DNA of 64,000 bases from a virus. Location: IMG/VR virus record IMGVR_UViG_3300031521_000011, positions 1 to 64,000 of that record, one strand, 5' to 3'. Positions 12,351 through 58,330 of the stretch are shown here, piece by piece. The position numbers and the translations under genes were made by a program. Below the pieces are notes generated by a model, which made no database searches, was not told where the DNA came from, and saw nothing but the letters and a program-made list of their open reading frames with translations. Positions within the stretch are counted from its first letter, which is position 1, and each line of letters starts with the position of its first letter.

Positions 12351-12375
12351 AAAAAAAAGGGGGCCGAAGCCCCTA
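12351..12375 (-). terminator. Terminator after the 12373 gene
   Basis: GGGGC pairs with GCCCC, followed by ten Ts on the minus strand, right at the stop codon of the 12373 gene. Confidence 0.7.
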
Positions 12376-12921
12376 TAGTCTGCATTCCCCAATGTAACGC
12401 AGCACAGTTATTGCTGCATCGTACTGGGATTGAAAGCTTTGGTGCTTGTCGAGATTCTGCGCCCCGACATCTGCTGCAATTAAATGCAGAAGGTCCCACA
12501 CCAGATCTGACCCGTATTTCTGTACGAGCCCGCGTATGGCAGTTACGGAGTCAAGCGCTTGGCCAAACCCAAGCCCATAGTCATGCTCGCCGATGAGGAT
12601 GAGGATTTGCCTAAGCTCCTCTTCGTCGAGGAGATCACCAACCATGGGGCGCAGAATCCTTTCTGCAATCTCAACGCTTGGCTTGGCATGATTATAGAAA
12701 TGGTCCACGCCATCCCTTGTGAACTTCACGACGGGCTTACCAATGTCGTGAAGGAGGGCGGCCACTCTCACATCGCCAGTGTAGCCAGCGCTATTCAAGT
12801 AGGCGCGATTCATATGCTCGCCTACATTGAACAGGTGAAAGGCATTGTTCTGCTCACAATTGATGCAAGTCTTGTATTCCTCGCTGGCCCGGATAGCTTT
12901 GACGATTTTGGAAATCTTCAT
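12373..12921 (-). CDS. HD-domain phosphohydrolase
   Basis: 182 residues from the start at 12921, behind AAGGGG. The metal-binding HD pair is at residues 58-59 in AALLHDIGKP, with upstream His in NVGEHMNRA and downstream His in FYNHAK and GEHDYG. This matches the HDIG family seen in tRNA nucleotidyltransferases and nucleotide hydrolases. Substrates could be dNTPs, cyclic nucleotides or 2',3'-cyclic phosphates; no fused domain narrows this. It is the first minus-strand gene next to the 13-kb control region, so it may be expressed early. Confidence 0.8.
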   Translation of the reverse strand: MKISKIVKAIRASEEYKTCINCEQNNAFHLFNVGEHMNRAYLNSAGYTGDVRVAALLHDIGKPVVKFTRDGVDHFYNHAKPSVEIAERILRPMVGDLLDEEELRQILILIGEHDYGLGFGQALDSVTAIRGLVQKYGSDLVWDLLHLIAADVGAQNLDKHQSFQSQYDAAITVLRYIGECRL

Positions 12922-12956: not shown

Positions 12957-13065
12957 GCCATATTTGAGTGGTTTGAAATGCCTGCACCGCCCCCAACACC
13001 CCCTCATTACAGCGTCAGAGATGTGAGCGACAAAGAGCGGATGCATAGTATGCGTGCCCGGCTCT

Positions 13066-13114
13066 GCTGGCGGGGCGTGCATCGACGTAAGGAGTGCACG
13101 GTGGCGCCGCCAGC
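13066..13114. repeat. GC-rich inverted repeat
   Basis: GCTGGCGG (13066-13073) and CCGCCAGC (13107-13114) are perfect inverted repeats, with a nested GTGCA/TGCAC pair inside. It could form a cruciform or an RNA hairpin at the left edge of the control region. Confidence 0.6.
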
Positions 13115-13148
13115 ATGGATAACGCCTCTGGCGACTCTGGCGATGTGA

Positions 13149-13174
13149 GTATGCATACAATGTATAATTATACA
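13149..13174. repeat. Two adjacent perfect palindromes
   Basis: GTATGCATAC (13149-13158) and TGTATAATTATACA (13161-13174) sit 2 bp apart. Perfect palindromes of this size are typical dimeric regulator sites; the second also contains a TATAAT. Confidence 0.6.
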
Positions 13175-13187
13175 AAAAAATTCCTTG

Positions 13188-13651
13188 TTGGCACGGTACC
13201 CCCCTCTCTTGGCAGAGAAGTGCCCTCTCTTGGCAGAGAAGTGCCCTCTCTTGGCAGACTCTTGGCAGACAAATTGGTAAAAAAAGGAAATTTTTCTTAT
13301 AAATGTATAAAGCTAAAACGTGCCAGAATGGCTCTATTACTTATATATATATAATAATATAATATATATATATACAGTAGTATACAGATGGCTGCCAAGA
13401 GAGGAGAGGGAAAACATATAAGGAGATAATTTTTATTTTTTCTTTAAAAGAAATTGCTCTTTTCAAAAAAAAAATATTTATACCCCCGGGTACCTTTTCT
13501 GAGAATTTCGTGCCTCTTGGCAGAGAAATGCCCTCAAACCCGCATGAATCCTCACTTTACCAGTTTTTGCCTGTGCCAAGAGAGGGGGGTATCGTGCCAA
13601 GAGACCATGTTTTTCTGCCAACAGTTGGCACAAAGTGCCCCCTTGTTGGCA
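13188..13651. repeat. Twelve TTGGCA boxes, mainly phased at 21 bp
   Basis: Forward TTGGCA starts at 13188, 13209, 13230, 13251, 13262, 13517, 13625 and 13646; the reverse form TGCCAA starts at 13393, 13574, 13595 and 13616. Spacing is exactly 21 bp within three runs (13188-13251, 13574-13616 and 13625-13646), two helical turns, so bound proteins would face the same side. The left run is built on a 21-bp unit CTTGGCAGAGAAGTGCCCTCT. The runs flank the AT-rich core. Confidence 0.8.
13338..13380. other. AT-only core between box clusters
   Basis: A run of alternating T and A with almost no G or C lies between the left and right TTGGCA clusters. It should melt easily, as expected for a DNA unwinding element. 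Confidence 0.5.
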
Positions 13652-13902
13652 CGCGAAGCGTCCGATTTCCACTTCCGTGCTGTAATGGAGGAGCTCTGGG
13701 CTCTGAAATTATGCCCTGGATGTCATCGCCGGCCGCCTTGCGGGCAGATTTTGCAGACCAATGTGGTAGCAAAACGGAGCATGAGCGAGAAAAACCCTCG
13801 TATGTAACACTTGGTGAAAGAAGGATTGATGCCAAGGCTGAATATGGGGAGTGGAAAAGTGGATAGGGTTGTGAGCATATGGCTGTTGACATATGGCTTG
13901 AA

Positions 13903-13955
13903 AATGCAAACGATTTTGTTTGCATTGGAGGAAAGCAAAGGATTTTGTTTGCATT
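13903..13955. repeat. GATTTTGTTTGCATT direct repeat with inverted half
   Basis: GATTTTGTTTGCATT occurs at 13912-13926 and 13941-13955 (29-bp period). AATGCAAAC at 13903-13911 is the inverted match of GTTTGCATT at 13918-13926. The set lies about 150 bp before the first plus-strand promoter and looks like an operator for it. Confidence 0.55.
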
Positions 13956-14101
13956 CGGTTGACAAAACAGAGGGAATAGGAGGATTGGTTGACAAATGGG
14001 GTGAGGAATGACTTTGACGACTCTGACGTTGCGCCCGGGGATGGATGTGTTTTATAATGATGGGGAGATTGGTAAGGCAACCTGGACCTGTTGATACTGC
14101 T

Positions 14102-14130
14102 TTGCCGTCATAGTGTTACTGTGTTATAAT
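14102..14130 (+). promoter_or_regulatory. Sigma-A-type promoter of the 14-kb operon
   Basis: TTGCCG, a 17-bp spacer and TATAAT, then about 40 bp to the start codon at 14170. It is the rightward promoter of the large divergent region. Confidence 0.7.
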
Positions 14131-14169: not shown

Positions 14170-14364
14170 ATGGAAAAAACAGGAACGATATACTGTGGTA
14201 TGAACATATACATCAATCCTTTAACGGGTGAACAGTTCCAGAAGACTGCAGGCGAGAAGTTTGAACGCATGGACTCACGCCAATTGAAAGTCGAACAGCG
14301 CTTCATAAAGAAGCATGCGAAAGATATGGCTAACAAGATAGGGGAGGTTGCACTCAATGGATAA
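14170..14364 (+). CDS. Small protein with KTAGEKF motif
   Basis: 64 residues starting at 14170 behind AAAGGAG. It begins MEKTG and has FQKTAGEKF in the middle, a pattern like the [E/Q]K[IT]A units found in the tagged proteins of the plus-strand islands. The C-terminus is basic. It is the first gene of the 14-17.8 kb operon and overlaps the next gene by 8 bp; possibly a minor virion component. Confidence 0.7.
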   Translation: MEKTGTIYCGMNIYINPLTGEQFQKTAGEKFERMDSRQLKVEQRFIKKHAKDMANKIGEVALNG

Positions 14365-16876
14365 GTTTGCTGCAAGTTTGGCTGAAGGTTTCATTCCAGA
14401 AAGAACCATGCAAATGAACCTCGATCCTCAGTACGATCAGATTCGCAAAACTGCCGGCATGGTGCTCCATGGCAAGAAATCTGATGACATCAAGAAGTTC
14501 GTTTTGAATTATATACGCCCTGACCTGAAGGCCGCTGGTGTTGAGGGCGAATTGAGCTGCTCTATAGAGTCCTCGGATGTTGGAAAAAATGACAATAGCG
14601 ATATACTGGAAGGAACTGGAAAGGTAAACATTAAGAAGGATGGGGCCACAATTTCCATTCCTTTCGTCGTTTCTAGCGGAGAAGTTTCCATTGATGTGAT
14701 TCAAGTTGCCGATAAAACGATACCTTACGACAGAGAGAACTTAGGAAAAATATTTGAGGCACTTGGCCATGCTGGAAAAGAAAAAGCAGCGTTCGATGGC
14801 ACATCCGGCTTTATCGGAACAGAGAAGCCCATTGCCATGAGCACTGACCCAGGCTTCCTTGCTGATGTCATGCAGATTCGTGACAAGCATGTCAGCAAGA
14901 ACATTGTTGATGGAAATCATTATGTCTATGCCTTCGAGCATCTTGACACTGCTCTCGAAAAGACTGCGGGTATCGCCGAACTGACGAAGGCATCGTTGGC
15001 GACGATAGAGCAGCTTGCTGTAGCAGCATTTGAAAATGAAGTCGAAGAGCAGATCAAGAAAGCATGCGCGGGCACGGAAGACATGGATAAACTGGCAGAA
15101 GATGTCAGGATGTTCCTTGAGGACGCAGCCGGCCTGTCCTGGAAGCTTGCATCGCAGATTGCTGATGGCCAGCACATTGTCTTCCCTGAGAAGAATGGAA
15201 AAGAAATTTCAATGACTCACGCTGTAGTGTTCAAAAATGCATTGCTTATGCGTGAACCATACGATATGGCGCAATCATTAAGCGACAGCGCTTCTCCGTA
15301 TGAACATGATCGCAACAACCTGCAGAAGATGGAGTATGACAATAAGAAAAACTCCATTATCATTATCACGAACGACAACAGATTTGTTGTTCTTCAAAAC
15401 AACGAACCATTCTGGGCTATTGAGTCGGATGAGTCGTGGACATTCAAAACAACAACCCCATGGGCTATGCAGCCGAGCAGCATTTACTGCGGCATATTCG
15501 GTAACTCCATCACGTTCCCTTTCCAGGTTCGTTATGTTGAAAATGCAACCAAGCGGGATGTCAACGCTCCAATGCCTGATGGCATCATTGAGTCCACAAT
15601 GGCTCAGGTCGACAACATCCCGAAGATCCTCAGGGCTCGCTGTTCTGAATGGCCTTCGGAGAATCACAGCTTCAACCTGATGGGCATCCCTGGCACAAGA
15701 TTTAAGGCGTTGACAGCGCAAGCAGCGCAAGATGCGTGGAAGGGCCTAATGAAGGATATCTCTCCTGAGTGGGCGATGAGAATCATGGCCACCACCAGTT
15801 ATGGCGATGTCTGGGCTACCGACCCTGAACTCACCCGTCTCATTCCCATCAAAGGATTCATCGGAGATTATCTGCGCAATGCAAAGCAAGTCGAGTTCAC
15901 CGCCGGTGATACCCTGTTTAAGGAAGCCGGCAGCCAGATGGTCAAGCTCACGTGCTATGACAAGATGCGTGGCATCTTTGATGTTTATGTGCAATACAAA
16001 AACGACGTCAACAAGATCTTCAAGACCACCATCAAAACCTTCAACAAAGTTGACCGCTATACCGTTATGGGCATCCTTCGCACCATCGGGTTTGCTCCTT
16101 CCGAAGTGGTTGAGTTGGTTGAGAAGGCCAGCATCAACAACACAGCCTCCGCCGATATGCCAAAGGATGCAACCCCTGAGAACATCGAAGGCGGCGACAC
16201 TCAGACAAAGGCAAGAGCTCTTGTGAAGAAGCTCGTCGGCAAGGCTTTGACAGCAGACAACGTCAGCAATATGGGCGCATCCATCGCCGGGGCCCAGCTC
16301 GCAGACATCGCAGAAGACAATGACAATCTCAAGCACATCCTCACATCCGTGCATGAGTGGACAAAGAAGTCAGAGTTGTGTGCATGTGAATTCGAGAAGC
16401 TTGCCATCGAGACACAGTCGGACCAGGCACTCAACGTGGCCAAAGTATTGGTCTCAGCATACTACACCGGCACAGCAATCGGTGATGCCTGCAATGGCAA
16501 GGTCATGAATCATTTCAAGGAAGCGATGGAGTCCGTTCGCGCTGCTCAACCCGAGATCGAGAAGCTTGCCTACGAACTTATTGCTATGAAGATAGACGGA
16601 TTCAAGGCTGGCACACAGATCATTTCTCCGAATCTCATTACAGCAGCCATCGGATGCATGGACAGGTTGGTCAAGGTGGCCAACTCTGGCGGCACGGCAC
16701 ACTCAGAAGTGATTTGTGAGGAGTGTGGTAAGAAGGCCGAGGCCGGGCAGCAGCTCATCCAGGGTAAATGCCCCGCATGCTACCAGGAAGAGCAGCAGAA
16801 AAGCAATGACGGCAGCGCTACGGTGATCCAGGATGACAAAGACAGAGTAACCCCAGTATCATCATCAATGCAGTAG
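14357..16876 (+). CDS. Large putative virion protein with C-terminal zinc finger
   Basis: 839 residues, starting at ATG 14357 behind GGAGG (a TTG at 14348 is less likely). It begins MDKFA and carries several K-x-A units (IRKTAG, LEKTAG, MDKLAE, FEKLAI, IEKLAY). There is no transmembrane segment. Near the C-terminus CEECGKKAEAG...GKCPAC forms a four-Cys zinc knuckle, followed by a polar tail. Size and position at the head of an operon with other tagged proteins suggest a structural or internal virion protein; no sequence family is recognised. Confidence 0.7.
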   Translation: MDKFAASLAEGFIPERTMQMNLDPQYDQIRKTAGMVLHGKKSDDIKKFVLNYIRPDLKAAGVEGELSCSIESSDVGKNDNSDILEGTGKVNIKKDGATISIPFVVSSGEVSIDVIQVADKTIPYDRENLGKIFEALGHAGKEKAAFDGTSGFIGTEKPIAMSTDPGFLADVMQIRDKHVSKNIVDGNHYVYAFEHLDTALEKTAGIAELTKASLATIEQLAVAAFENEVEEQIKKACAGTEDMDKLAEDVRMFLEDAAGLSWKLASQIADGQHIVFPEKNGKEISMTHAVVFKNALLMREPYDMAQSLSDSASPYEHDRNNLQKMEYDNKKNSIIIITNDNRFVVLQNNEPFWAIESDESWTFKTTTPWAMQPSSIYCGIFGNSITFPFQVRYVENATKRDVNAPMPDGIIESTMAQVDNIPKILRARCSEWPSENHSFNLMGIPGTRFKALTAQAAQDAWKGLMKDISPEWAMRIMATTSYGDVWATDPELTRLIPIKGFIGDYLRNAKQVEFTAGDTLFKEAGSQMVKLTCYDKMRGIFDVYVQYKNDVNKIFKTTIKTFNKVDRYTVMGILRTIGFAPSEVVELVEKASINNTASADMPKDATPENIEGGDTQTKARALVKKLVGKALTADNVSNMGASIAGAQLADIAEDNDNLKHILTSVHEWTKKSELCACEFEKLAIETQSDQALNVAKVLVSAYYTGTAIGDACNGKVMNHFKEAMESVRAAQPEIEKLAYELIAMKIDGFKAGTQIISPNLITAAIGCMDRLVKVANSGGTAHSEVICEECGKKAEAGQQLIQGKCPACYQEEQQKSNDGSATVIQDDKDRVTPVSSSMQ

Positions 16877-37876: not shown

Positions 37877-38257
37877 TTACTCCTTCTTATTCTCGTCCTC
37901 GTATGCGGCGAACATCCTACGGACCATCTCTCCGCCGATGCTACCCTGTGTTGGTGATTGGCTTAGTTCGTAGCGGTAGGCTCCCTGACGGACCCTATCC
38001 TTTTGCGCCTGGATCAGTGTCGGATTACTGGTACCATACTCGCGCTCGTTTGCGATTTTAATGAGGCCAATCAGGTCGATTCCCTCAAGGATTTCATCCA
38101 GATCGTCGTCGCCGGTCTCCGCCTCATCTGGGTCCTGAGAATATGAACCATCTGGATTTCTCGTAACAGAGATTGTAAGGTCTGGATCCTGACCATCCCT
38201 TAAAGTCAGGATTGCTTTGTCCTCATCGACGTCGACAGTAACGTTGATCTTACTCAT
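37877..38257 (-). CDS. Unknown acidic protein
   Basis: 126 residues, strongly acidic in the first half (DEDKAIL, QDPDEAETGDDDLDEILE). Its N-terminus (MSKINVTVDVDEDK) resembles that of the 39691 gene (MAKITMTIEADEEK), suggesting a shared beta module. Behind GGAGGATG. Confidence 0.65.
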   Translation of the reverse strand: MSKINVTVDVDEDKAILTLRDGQDPDLTISVTRNPDGSYSQDPDEAETGDDDLDEILEGIDLIGLIKIANEREYGTSNPTLIQAQKDRVRQGAYRYELSQSPTQGSIGGEMVRRMFAAYEDENKKE

Positions 38258-56187: not shown

Positions 56188-57555
56188 TTATCTGTTGGTG
56201 GAGGCAAATTCGATGATATATCGAATAGCTTGCTGACCGCTATCATATACGATGAATTCATTGTGCAATAGACTGCTTCCTGCAACTCCCTTGACACTAT
56301 CAAATCCGGAAGGCGCCTTGAGATGGTAAACGGAGTTTCGCTCCTCTTTGATCCTTCCGCAGGCGACGTCGGCGACGAATAGGAAGGCAGTGGGATGGGC
56401 ATTTTGACGACCACCGAAGCGGCTGCACGCATACTGGGTAGATTTAGTCGATTGATCAGCGAAATAGATTCCAGGTCCAAACATTGCTCCAGTGATATAC
56501 ACCCCCGACAATTGTGTTGGGAGCTTAAGGAAAGAGGAGAGAATCCCGGGCAGGTTGGCCGTTCTTGAGCCATGAAAAAGTTCTTTGACATTACCAATTC
56601 CCTCCTTGAATGCCGGCGCACGCTTCTGCTTTACGCCGAACATATTGACAGCGCTTAGCTTGACGGAGTGATGGTTGCTCTGGGAGTTGATCATATAGTC
56701 CTCCAGATGCCGCCATAGACCTGAACCACGTGGAATCGCCCAAAGATCACTATACAAGGAATCGTAGCGTTTGTCGATATCGTCGCTGACGATGACATCC
56801 TCCATGCGCAGGGAGTCCTCATAAAATTTCAACAGATCAAGCTCCATGCTGATTTTGTCATCATTACCGATGAGGACATCTTCCAGACTTATTTTCCTGC
56901 TGCCGAACGAGCGGGGAATAATGCGGCGATACTGCTCCGATAAACTCTGAATCATTGGAGCATCATGTATCTTGATGGACTTCGCAATCTCCTCAAGCGC
57001 TGCCCGGCCCATGCCGATTTGTTTATTACTGAGCTTACCAAGCGGAGCTTTCTGGTCTAGTGTGGCCTGACCATTAATGAATGAAGAAAGGGCTGCTCCG
57101 CTTTCATCGAAGATGTGTTGCACGAACTTCCGGACCTCAGGCTCAAGATTGCTCCGGTTTTCTGCTTTAATGGTAGTTGGGGCAGCAATGACTTCATTGG
57201 CGTCAATCATCTTCTGGGCTTCGGCGCTGCCAGTGGAACTCTGTGCCAGCTCGATCTCCACGTATCCCTTCTTGGTCTTTTCATGGACGATTGCACTGAA
57301 TTCCGAGCGAGCCAGACTTGCAGAGATGCCAGAGTTGCCACGCACCTGTTTTGTGGACGTTACCCCAAGCCTTCCGTATTCAGAGAAAATCCTATAGACA
57401 CCATTAGCTCCCTCATGAAGTTCAATGGTGTAGTATTTGTTCGAGTTTACGCCCACCTCAAAGAAGTTTAAGGTCTTTTTATCCACGACCTTATAGGACG
57501 AGAATGGGCTCCCCACATCCAAGTGAGGAGCCCAGTTAAGTGCGCTTAGTCCCAT
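56188..57555 (-). CDS. Poly(ADP-ribose) polymerase with WGR, regulatory and catalytic domains
   Basis: 455 residues from ATG 57555, 5 nt after TGGAGG at the end of the upstream gene. Residues 25-110 are a WGR domain (YRIFSEYGRLG) that in PARP1 senses DNA breaks; about 140-270 is the helical regulatory domain (GKLSNKQIGMGRAALEEIA); 285-455 is the ART domain. The H-Y-E triad is complete: His328 in ELFHGSRTAN, Tyr364 in GPGIYFAD and Glu433 in LLHNEFIVYD. An active polymerising enzyme is expected, in contrast to the mono-ADP-ribosyltransferases of T4. Unlike PARP1 it lacks zinc fingers and BRCT. Confidence 0.92.
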   Translation of the reverse strand: MGLSALNWAPHLDVGSPFSSYKVVDKKTLNFFEVGVNSNKYYTIELHEGANGVYRIFSEYGRLGVTSTKQVRGNSGISASLARSEFSAIVHEKTKKGYVEIELAQSSTGSAEAQKMIDANEVIAAPTTIKAENRSNLEPEVRKFVQHIFDESGAALSSFINGQATLDQKAPLGKLSNKQIGMGRAALEEIAKSIKIHDAPMIQSLSEQYRRIIPRSFGSRKISLEDVLIGNDDKISMELDLLKFYEDSLRMEDVIVSDDIDKRYDSLYSDLWAIPRGSGLWRHLEDYMINSQSNHHSVKLSAVNMFGVKQKRAPAFKEGIGNVKELFHGSRTANLPGILSSFLKLPTQLSGVYITGAMFGPGIYFADQSTKSTQYACSRFGGRQNAHPTAFLFVADVACGRIKEERNSVYHLKAPSGFDSVKGVAGSSLLHNEFIVYDSGQQAIRYIIEFASTNR

Positions 57556-57556
57556 G

Positions 57557-58330
57557 TTAGCCTCCAAATCCATCCTTTACAGAGTGAGGGCCGTCGATGC
57601 CGAGGAAGGTTGCTTCGGTGATTGGGGTAAGTGGTGCCGCGCAGGTATCGATTTCTACTGCAGTGACAGAGGGCGCTGTAAGGGCGGGCACAGGGCAATC
57701 CACAATCTTCTTGTAGAGTACATTCTCCCGATAGCGCCGCGCTTCCTTCTGAAGTATCTTGTAGAACAAGATTTCCTTACCAAGCTCTACGTCCTGCACG
57801 TTGTTGGCTTGGCACCTTATCTTCCTGATATGGAGCTTGCCATCGAATCCGTAGTATTTTGCTACGGTAACAGGACCACTTGTGAAATATTCGACAATCG
57901 GAAGAGCAGCCATCAGTATTTGTACGTTCTGATATTTCTTCGGGATCTCAATCTGTGTGCCGCCCATTGGGACAACATGCTGAGCAGCCCTAAATTCCGG
58001 CTTGATGTCGGGTAATTCTTTTTCAATGATCTCGTATTGGGCAGGATTCTGATATCTTATGGAGCGGCTGCCGGCCTGACGAATGATGCCAATGTCGCCA
58101 GTTTCCTCAACTTGCGCGAGCAAGTACTCACAATCGGGCTCAAGGAGGTCGGCGCGTTCAACGCCCTTGCATCCCGTTATCTTGATAGAGTCGTCCTGGA
58201 AGTCTTTAGGGGACAGAATCAACACGGTTCTGTTTTTGAGCCATCTGTTGAGATCAAAGCCACCTGCGTCAATGACTTTGGCTTTGTCGCCGGGGACCAG
58301 CTTCTGAATGTCGAGTGTAGTGTCGCACAT
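57557..58330 (-). CDS. Unknown protein upstream of PARP
   Basis: 257 residues; the C-terminus overlaps the PARP ribosome site, so the two are probably co-translated. N-terminal third is beta-type (VLILSPKDFQDDSIKITG), later part helical with basic stretches (KILQKEARRYRENVLYKK). No family is recognised. Being coupled to PARP suggests a substrate, adaptor or toxin/immunity role. Behind AAAGGAG. Confidence 0.65.
   Translation of the reverse strand: MCDTTLDIQKLVPGDKAKVIDAGGFDLNRWLKNRTVLILSPKDFQDDSIKITGCKGVERADLLEPDCEYLLAQVEETGDIGIIRQAGSRSIRYQNPAQYEIIEKELPDIKPEFRAAQHVVPMGGTQIEIPKKYQNVQILMAALPIVEYFTSGPVTVAKYYGFDGKLHIRKIRCQANNVQDVELGKEILFYKILQKEARRYRENVLYKKIVDCPVPALTAPSVTAVEIDTCAAPLTPITEATFLGIDGPHSVKDGFGG

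Follow-up and report, generated by a model that had tools for sequence, protein, structure and literature searches.

The array and its parts

What would a large phage be doing with a dozen copies of one hexamer packed into less than half a kilobase of its DNA? The question arises from the window, i.e., the 64,000-nucleotide stretch analysed here, which consists of bases 1-64000 of the 168,244-bp uncultured phage record IMGVR_UViG_3300031521_000011. A first-pass annotation had described twelve TTGGCA/TGCCAA boxes within some 460 bp, flanking a run of pure A/T, as a candidate origin. A scan for exact matches bears out the count, with all twelve found at 13188-13651 (464 bp), and the pure A/T run does lie between the two main groups. 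Successive spacings are 21, 21, 21, 11, 131, 124, 57, 21, 21, 9 and 21 bp, that is, exactly 21 bp in six of eleven gaps, which makes it fair to have said that nearly all boxes within three runs are so separated. The left boxes are indeed all forward (5/5), while the right ones, described as mainly reverse, are so only just (four reverse and three forward, n = 7). Phasing around the A/T core combines 11-bp with 21-bp steps. The whole is here termed module A, with its parts listed in Table 1.

No other hexamer clusters as tightly in the genome as TTGGCA, with 12 copies in 470 bp as against a maximum of 5 for hexamer clustering in 100 dinucleotide shuffles. Same-strand pairs of TTGGCA at 21 bp likewise number 11 across the genome versus 0-1 in shuffles. 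The block at 13461..13605, which is shared with a second module, contains an A10 tract, CCCCCGGGTACC, one forward box and two reverse boxes. An Rfam search matched no RNA family.

Table 1. Parts of module A and associated features (window positions unless marked as genome positions)
Feature	Position	Strand	Basis
Module A, whole TTGGCA box array plus A/T core	13188..13651	.	box scan; self-BLAST match to module B
Left group of putative iterons (boxes 13188, 13209, 13230, 13251, 13262)	13188..13267	+	gaps of 21, 21, 21 and 11 bp; spacing shared with module B
Pure A/T core, candidate DNA-unwinding element	13341..13374	.	stability rank 1-2 in genome, together with module B
Lone reverse box, right side of A/T core	13393..13398	-	position kept in module B (90984) and in relative G001
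Block near-identical between modules A and B	13461..13605 (145 bp)	.	module alignment
Lone forward box	13517..13522	+	57 bp ahead of right group, modules A and B alike
Right group of putative iterons (reverse boxes 13574, 13595, 13616)	13574..13621	-	21 bp apart
Near-palindrome TGCCAACAGTTGGCA plus additional forward boxes 13625 and 13646	13616..13651	.	module A only
Left neighbour, HD-domain protein gene, start about 12921	12373..12921	-	Pfam PF01966, E=2e-7
Sigma-70-like promoter for HD-domain gene, left module edge, -10 outside module	13167..13194	-	consensus match only
Sigma-70-like promoter TTGCCG-17-TATAAT, 450 bp beyond module	14102..14130	+	consensus match only
Right flanking operon, large protein, no recognised family (no Pfam matches)	14348..16876	+	
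Primase-helicase	genome 138548-141751	-	zinc motif, Toprim, P-loop

To the right of the array, a small plus-strand gene starts at about 14171. The large protein encoded beyond it is probably structural, a role suggested by adjacent tail-fibre genes. Between the array and this right operon, at 13903-13955, are two 24-bp near-identical palindromes, AATGCAAACGATTTTGTTTGCATT, near repeated TTGACA hexamers; from their letters these look like repressor operators.

A second copy, almost opposite

The annotation had also raised the matter of boxes elsewhere in the genome. Searching the remainder yields a single further array, module B, at genome 90791-91209 and hence outside of the window, and its grammar is identical. 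That is, five forward boxes (21, 21, 21, 11) are followed by an A/T core, one reverse box and one forward box, and then, after 57 bp, by reverse boxes at 21-bp steps. Self-BLAST aligns 13188-13626 with 90791-91214 at 79% identity over 446 bp (E=2e-95), with likeness ending at the array edges. By nearest-neighbour calculation, nowhere else in the genome is duplex stability as low as at the two A/T cores, whether 50, 150 or 200 bp are considered.

The contig ends, 1-98 and 168141-168238, overlap imperfectly by 98 bp within an SbcD-like gene, and the map therefore is effectively circular. Going by these ends, the record probably represents a whole genome, circularly permuted, that was misassembled where its ends join. 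On the circular map modules A and B are separated by 77.6 and 90.6 kb, i.e., they are almost opposite one another. A skew change at the array, which the annotation had looked to as a sign of an origin, does not appear in third-position skew, and in this genome, Arash and D69 (relatives introduced below) that measure gives no replichore signal, gene-strand effects alone being seen. As gene direction dominates skew, this silence is uninformative; a skew change independent of gene direction would be a supporting sign and no strict requirement of an iteron-type theta origin.

Phased direct repeats of one site, adjoining an easily melted A/T-rich element (stability ranks 1 and 2), are what one looks for in an iteron-type theta origin, and both are present in module A. 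Iterons plus an unwinding element would seem the best-supported reading of the array, from its sequence and by analogy, and we consider it probable that the array is a replication origin of which the genome has more than one copy. The annotation's theta-like origin thereby gains comparative support, but as one of two copies rather than as ‘the’ origin.

Modules across a phage lineage

Searches with the terminase and the primase picked out Salmonella phage Arash and Vibrio phage D69, with which this phage has in common a terminase, portal, giant RNA-polymerase-like protein, protease and sheath. More relatives were gathered with the giant polymerase and the primase as queries, and 16 of these were read whole; apart from Arash and D69, all lineage genomes come from IMG/VR (G001 and so forth). 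Modules were called using a fixed criterion, i.e., that repeats found by self-BLAST be dispersed and lie on ranked A/T minima. They are found in 15 of the 19 genomes that share the giant fused RNA polymerase, at 2-5 copies each: two in this phage, G001, G009 and G016 (the last called from the repeat and box array rather than from an A/T minimum ranked in the top ten); three in D69, G011 and G005; four in G022; and five in G002, G003, G004, G007, G008, G012 and Arash. A module is 200-650 bp in length, consists of an A/T core flanked by inverted box arrays, and in most cases sits on a top-ranked A/T minimum. In Arash, a 200-bp element with the box GGTTACA is found five times around that phage's lowest-stability DNA.

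Six genomes were fetched last, after the pattern had been put forward, and three of these conform to it. No module is detectable in G020 or G021, at most one box cluster, at an A/T minimum, is seen in G019, and G010, a distant relative lacking the primase, has no modules. Repeats in G010 were at one point taken for five modules, a call that was rejected; they read instead as an IscB/TnpB-like element, with dispersed copies at 1-666 and 103006-103677, and were removed from the set. Phage MTATph1, a negative control with few genes in common (e.g., Pol III), is without dispersed intergenic modules.

Module cores fall outside of open reading frames of at least 100 aa in 52 of 56 cases. Gene settings, by an automatic ORF call which takes some small spurious ORFs as neighbours and which counts module A itself among the codirectional ones, are divergent for 19, codirectional for 29 and convergent for 8 modules, and the annotated gaps of Arash agree that settings are mixed. 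Modules therefore are not simply divergent promoters. Genes do diverge at module A, as had been pointed out, with the HD-domain gene on the minus strand and the small gene on the plus strand; since relatives' modules occupy all gene contexts, however, this divergence is not defining and loses its force as an argument for an origin.

Beyond the lineage, blastn returned no homologous arrays in phages or plasmids. Scanning viral and genome contigs for the exact box gave box-rich matches, which look to be coding repeats. A looser scan for TTGGCA at 21 bp gave coding repeats for the most part, along with four to five suggestive noncoding arrays in unrelated contigs (L023, L078, L066 and L053). In the unrelated viral contigs L023 (~732-779) and L078 (~867-914), 21-bp TTGGCA boxes lie by an A/T core with opposed boxes past that core, and these possibly represent convergent origins.

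Constant layout, changing boxes

One box is used per genome, across all of that genome's modules, which are 77-98% identical to each other, and the box differs between genomes. It is TTGGCA in this phage, GTGTCC in G001, TGTCCAA in G009 and G022, TGGACA in G011, TTGGTAC in G003, TGTAGCA in G005 and GTTACAA / GGTTACA in Arash. G001, the closest relative, nevertheless keeps the layout in detail: some number of forward boxes, the A/T core, one reverse box, an A-tract plus C-run, one forward box and then reverse boxes. The A-tract and C-run are those of the block at 13461..13605, recurring there in the company of a different box. In the five-copy genomes, module positions are conserved though sequence has diverged. 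Boxes that change within a layout that does not would be the trace expected of an initiator of changing specificity, with sites co-evolving.

Even spacing

For each genome we calculated the probability that modules placed at random on a circle would leave a smallest gap no smaller than the one observed, circular maps being assumed for all records, which is an assumption where end repeats are absent. For two-copy genomes P is 0.077 (this phage), 0.023 (G001), 0.024 (G016) and 0.093 (G009), and for three-copy genomes 0.0052 (D69), 0.055 (G011) and 0.081 (G005). It is 0.0087 for four-copy G022, 0.006 for five-copy G002, and 2e-5 to 3e-4 for the remaining five-copy genomes (Arash 2e-5). Five-copy genomes have module positions relative to the terminase in common and therefore are not independent; the combined Fisher P, using the least favourable genome per positional class, is about 2e-6. 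Across the lineage, that is, module gaps are far more even than chance. Two-copy spacing taken alone is weak evidence, and for this phage even spacing rests on the lineage.

The 2-5 regularly placed stations of related phages suggest copying from several evenly spaced start points. On balance we lean towards a lineage of 150-200 kb phages which replicates as a multi-origin chromosome, with 2-5 near-evenly spaced modules that evolve in concert within a genome, with boxes that switch between genomes, and with a layout that stays constant.

A possible mechanism and its closest known counterparts

As to how such an origin would fire, an initiator would bind the phased inverted boxes to either side of the A/T core and, so bound, would wrap the DNA, or loop it, and melt that core. 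The phage primase-helicase then could be loaded at the melted core, with forks departing bidirectionally. The initiator, we infer, would be either the primase-helicase or a partner. Its specificity and all of the boxes of one genome would evolve together, and three to five evenly spaced modules, as in relatives, would serve to shorten copying time.

The closest likeness is to the origins of PICIs and SaPIs, in which two iteron sets surround an A/T melting site adjoining a primase-initiator, and for which the ability to drive replication of a plasmid has been proven (PMC6092414). Common to those elements (with their Pri-Rep or P4 alpha-type primase-helicase initiators) and to the modules are paired iteron sets around an A/T-rich melting site, a primase-linked replication protein and iteron sequences that differ from element to element. 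This match, along with genome-lowest stability and a conserved layout with changing boxes, makes the origin reading stronger. The differences are in number and place. A PICI origin is single, found in a small satellite island, and directly 3' of its rep gene, whereas here there are 2-5 copies per genome, tens of kilobases from the primase gene, in phages of 150-200 kb which are not satellites and whose candidate origins are known from sequence. In this 168-kb phage, the two modules are at 13.4 and 91.0 kb and the primase-helicase is at 138.5-141.8 kb. Compared with Pri-Rep, furthermore, the phage primase-helicase gives DnaG-type zinc/Toprim matches only.

Other counterparts are more distant. 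Baculovirus homologous regions (hrs) are interspersed, repeated palindromic sequences of one genome that serve as origins and enhancers (PMC2834656), and the modules likewise are interspersed, repeated palindromic regions within a single virus genome; virus and sequence nonetheless are unrelated, and it is in the phage modules that regular spacing is notable. Herpes simplex oriS and oriL, with their origin-binding protein (PMC12543377), also have inverted boxes flanking an A/T spacer, but with three boxes rather than 8-12, with an SF2 helicase as initiator, and in another kind of virus. Phage T4 is a large phage with several origins, one of which, oriE, has evenly spaced direct repeats (PMC3016281), but T4 origins are without a common motif and the oriE iterons are without a proven role. 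A literature search for evenly spaced phage origins found T4 oriE only, and in the literature searched there is no description of phage origins that are both regularly spaced and sequence-related. If confirmed, these modules would provide a small system for studying what fixes the number of origins and the distance between them, how an initiator evolves along with its sites, and what keeps five near-identical sites evenly spread over one molecule. Arash and D69, as sequenced isolates, make the multi-origin reading testable.

Alternative explanations

Might the boxes instead bind a phage activator or repressor, with the A/T core aiding promoter opening, or the modules be enhancers that act independently of distance? 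In this phage and in G001, both copies have genes diverging on either side and stand ahead of structural operons, and baculovirus hrs do double as enhancers (PMC2834656). We nevertheless think transcriptional control unlikely. In modules A and B, the recognisable sigma-70-like promoters of flanking genes are at or beyond the limits of the conserved unit, no module accompanies the terminase operon at 65.4 kb, relatives' modules are found also in convergent and codirectional gaps, and G010 retains both RNA polymerase and a sigma-like gene despite having no modules. Nor would even spacing be predicted. Even spacing would fit an organiser of the chromosome, i.e., modules that anchor or fold the genome, serve in partition, or mark recombination or headful cutting, as would the same-orientation copies in Arash, and the phage encodes two HU-like proteins. 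Against these roles, which we judge to be quite unlikely, packaging needs one site rather than five, partition has no use for a strong, conserved melting core, and neither ParA nor ParB is among the Pfam matches listed for the phage's proteins.

It is very improbable, lastly, that the modules are a MITE-like miniature mobile element, with inverted ends, that has spread within the genome. Copies are dispersed, end in inverted repeats and are 77-98% identical within a genome, just as such an element would be, but positions are conserved across five-copy genomes despite diverged sequence, spacing is even, box arrays take the place of simple terminal repeats, and no cognate transposase was identified. 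The replication origin continues to be our preferred reading, though the modules possibly act as an enhancer, as a genome-organising site, or as an origin and enhancer combined, in the manner of baculovirus hrs (PMC2834656).

Gene content and candidate initiators

The phage encodes Pol III alpha, an NAD-dependent ligase, an SbcC-like exonuclease, SF2 helicases and the primase-helicase, as well as a contractile-tail sheath, terminase and portal. Pfam searches of 166 proteins, most of those predicted for the phage, gave no DnaA, RepA_N, DnaD or similar initiator among the matches listed, with the 25 commonest families tabulated (28 in one table). In a first set of 12 module genomes, three protein families were present throughout and absent from both G010 and MTATph1, with the primase-helicase the sole replication protein among the three. 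It is found also in G009, G012 and G022, and hence in all module-bearing genomes checked. As G019, G020 and G021 possess it as well, G020 and G021 without a detectable module, its presence is necessary-looking but not sufficient for modules. AlphaFold and Foldseek were applied to a primase homologue, for which the model was too poor to locate a DNA-binding domain. An association of origin number with polymerase type was considered and is not supported; both Pol III genomes (2/2) have two copies, and so do two PolA-type genomes. The HU-like DNA-binding proteins, at genome 87849-88109 (minus) and 83393-83656 (plus), are possible origin-opening helpers.

Several other genes may be recorded. The giant polymerase gene at genome 76254-83144 (L005:12254-19144), outside of the window, encodes one protein of 2296 aa in which the motifs HGNKG and ADYDGD, typical of the beta and beta-prime subunits of RNA polymerase, both occur. 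Its Arash counterpart is split around one module, and a sigma-like gene (114137-114979) is conserved together with it. Within the window, a PARP gene occupies 56188-57573 (minus), with the PF00644 catalytic domain placed there and with PARP regulatory and WGR domains also matched in the gene set that holds it; NAMPT and other NAD-related genes are found in the same genome. Small acid-soluble spore proteins (PF00269) are matched in part at 37877-38257 (minus), a hint of a spore-forming host.
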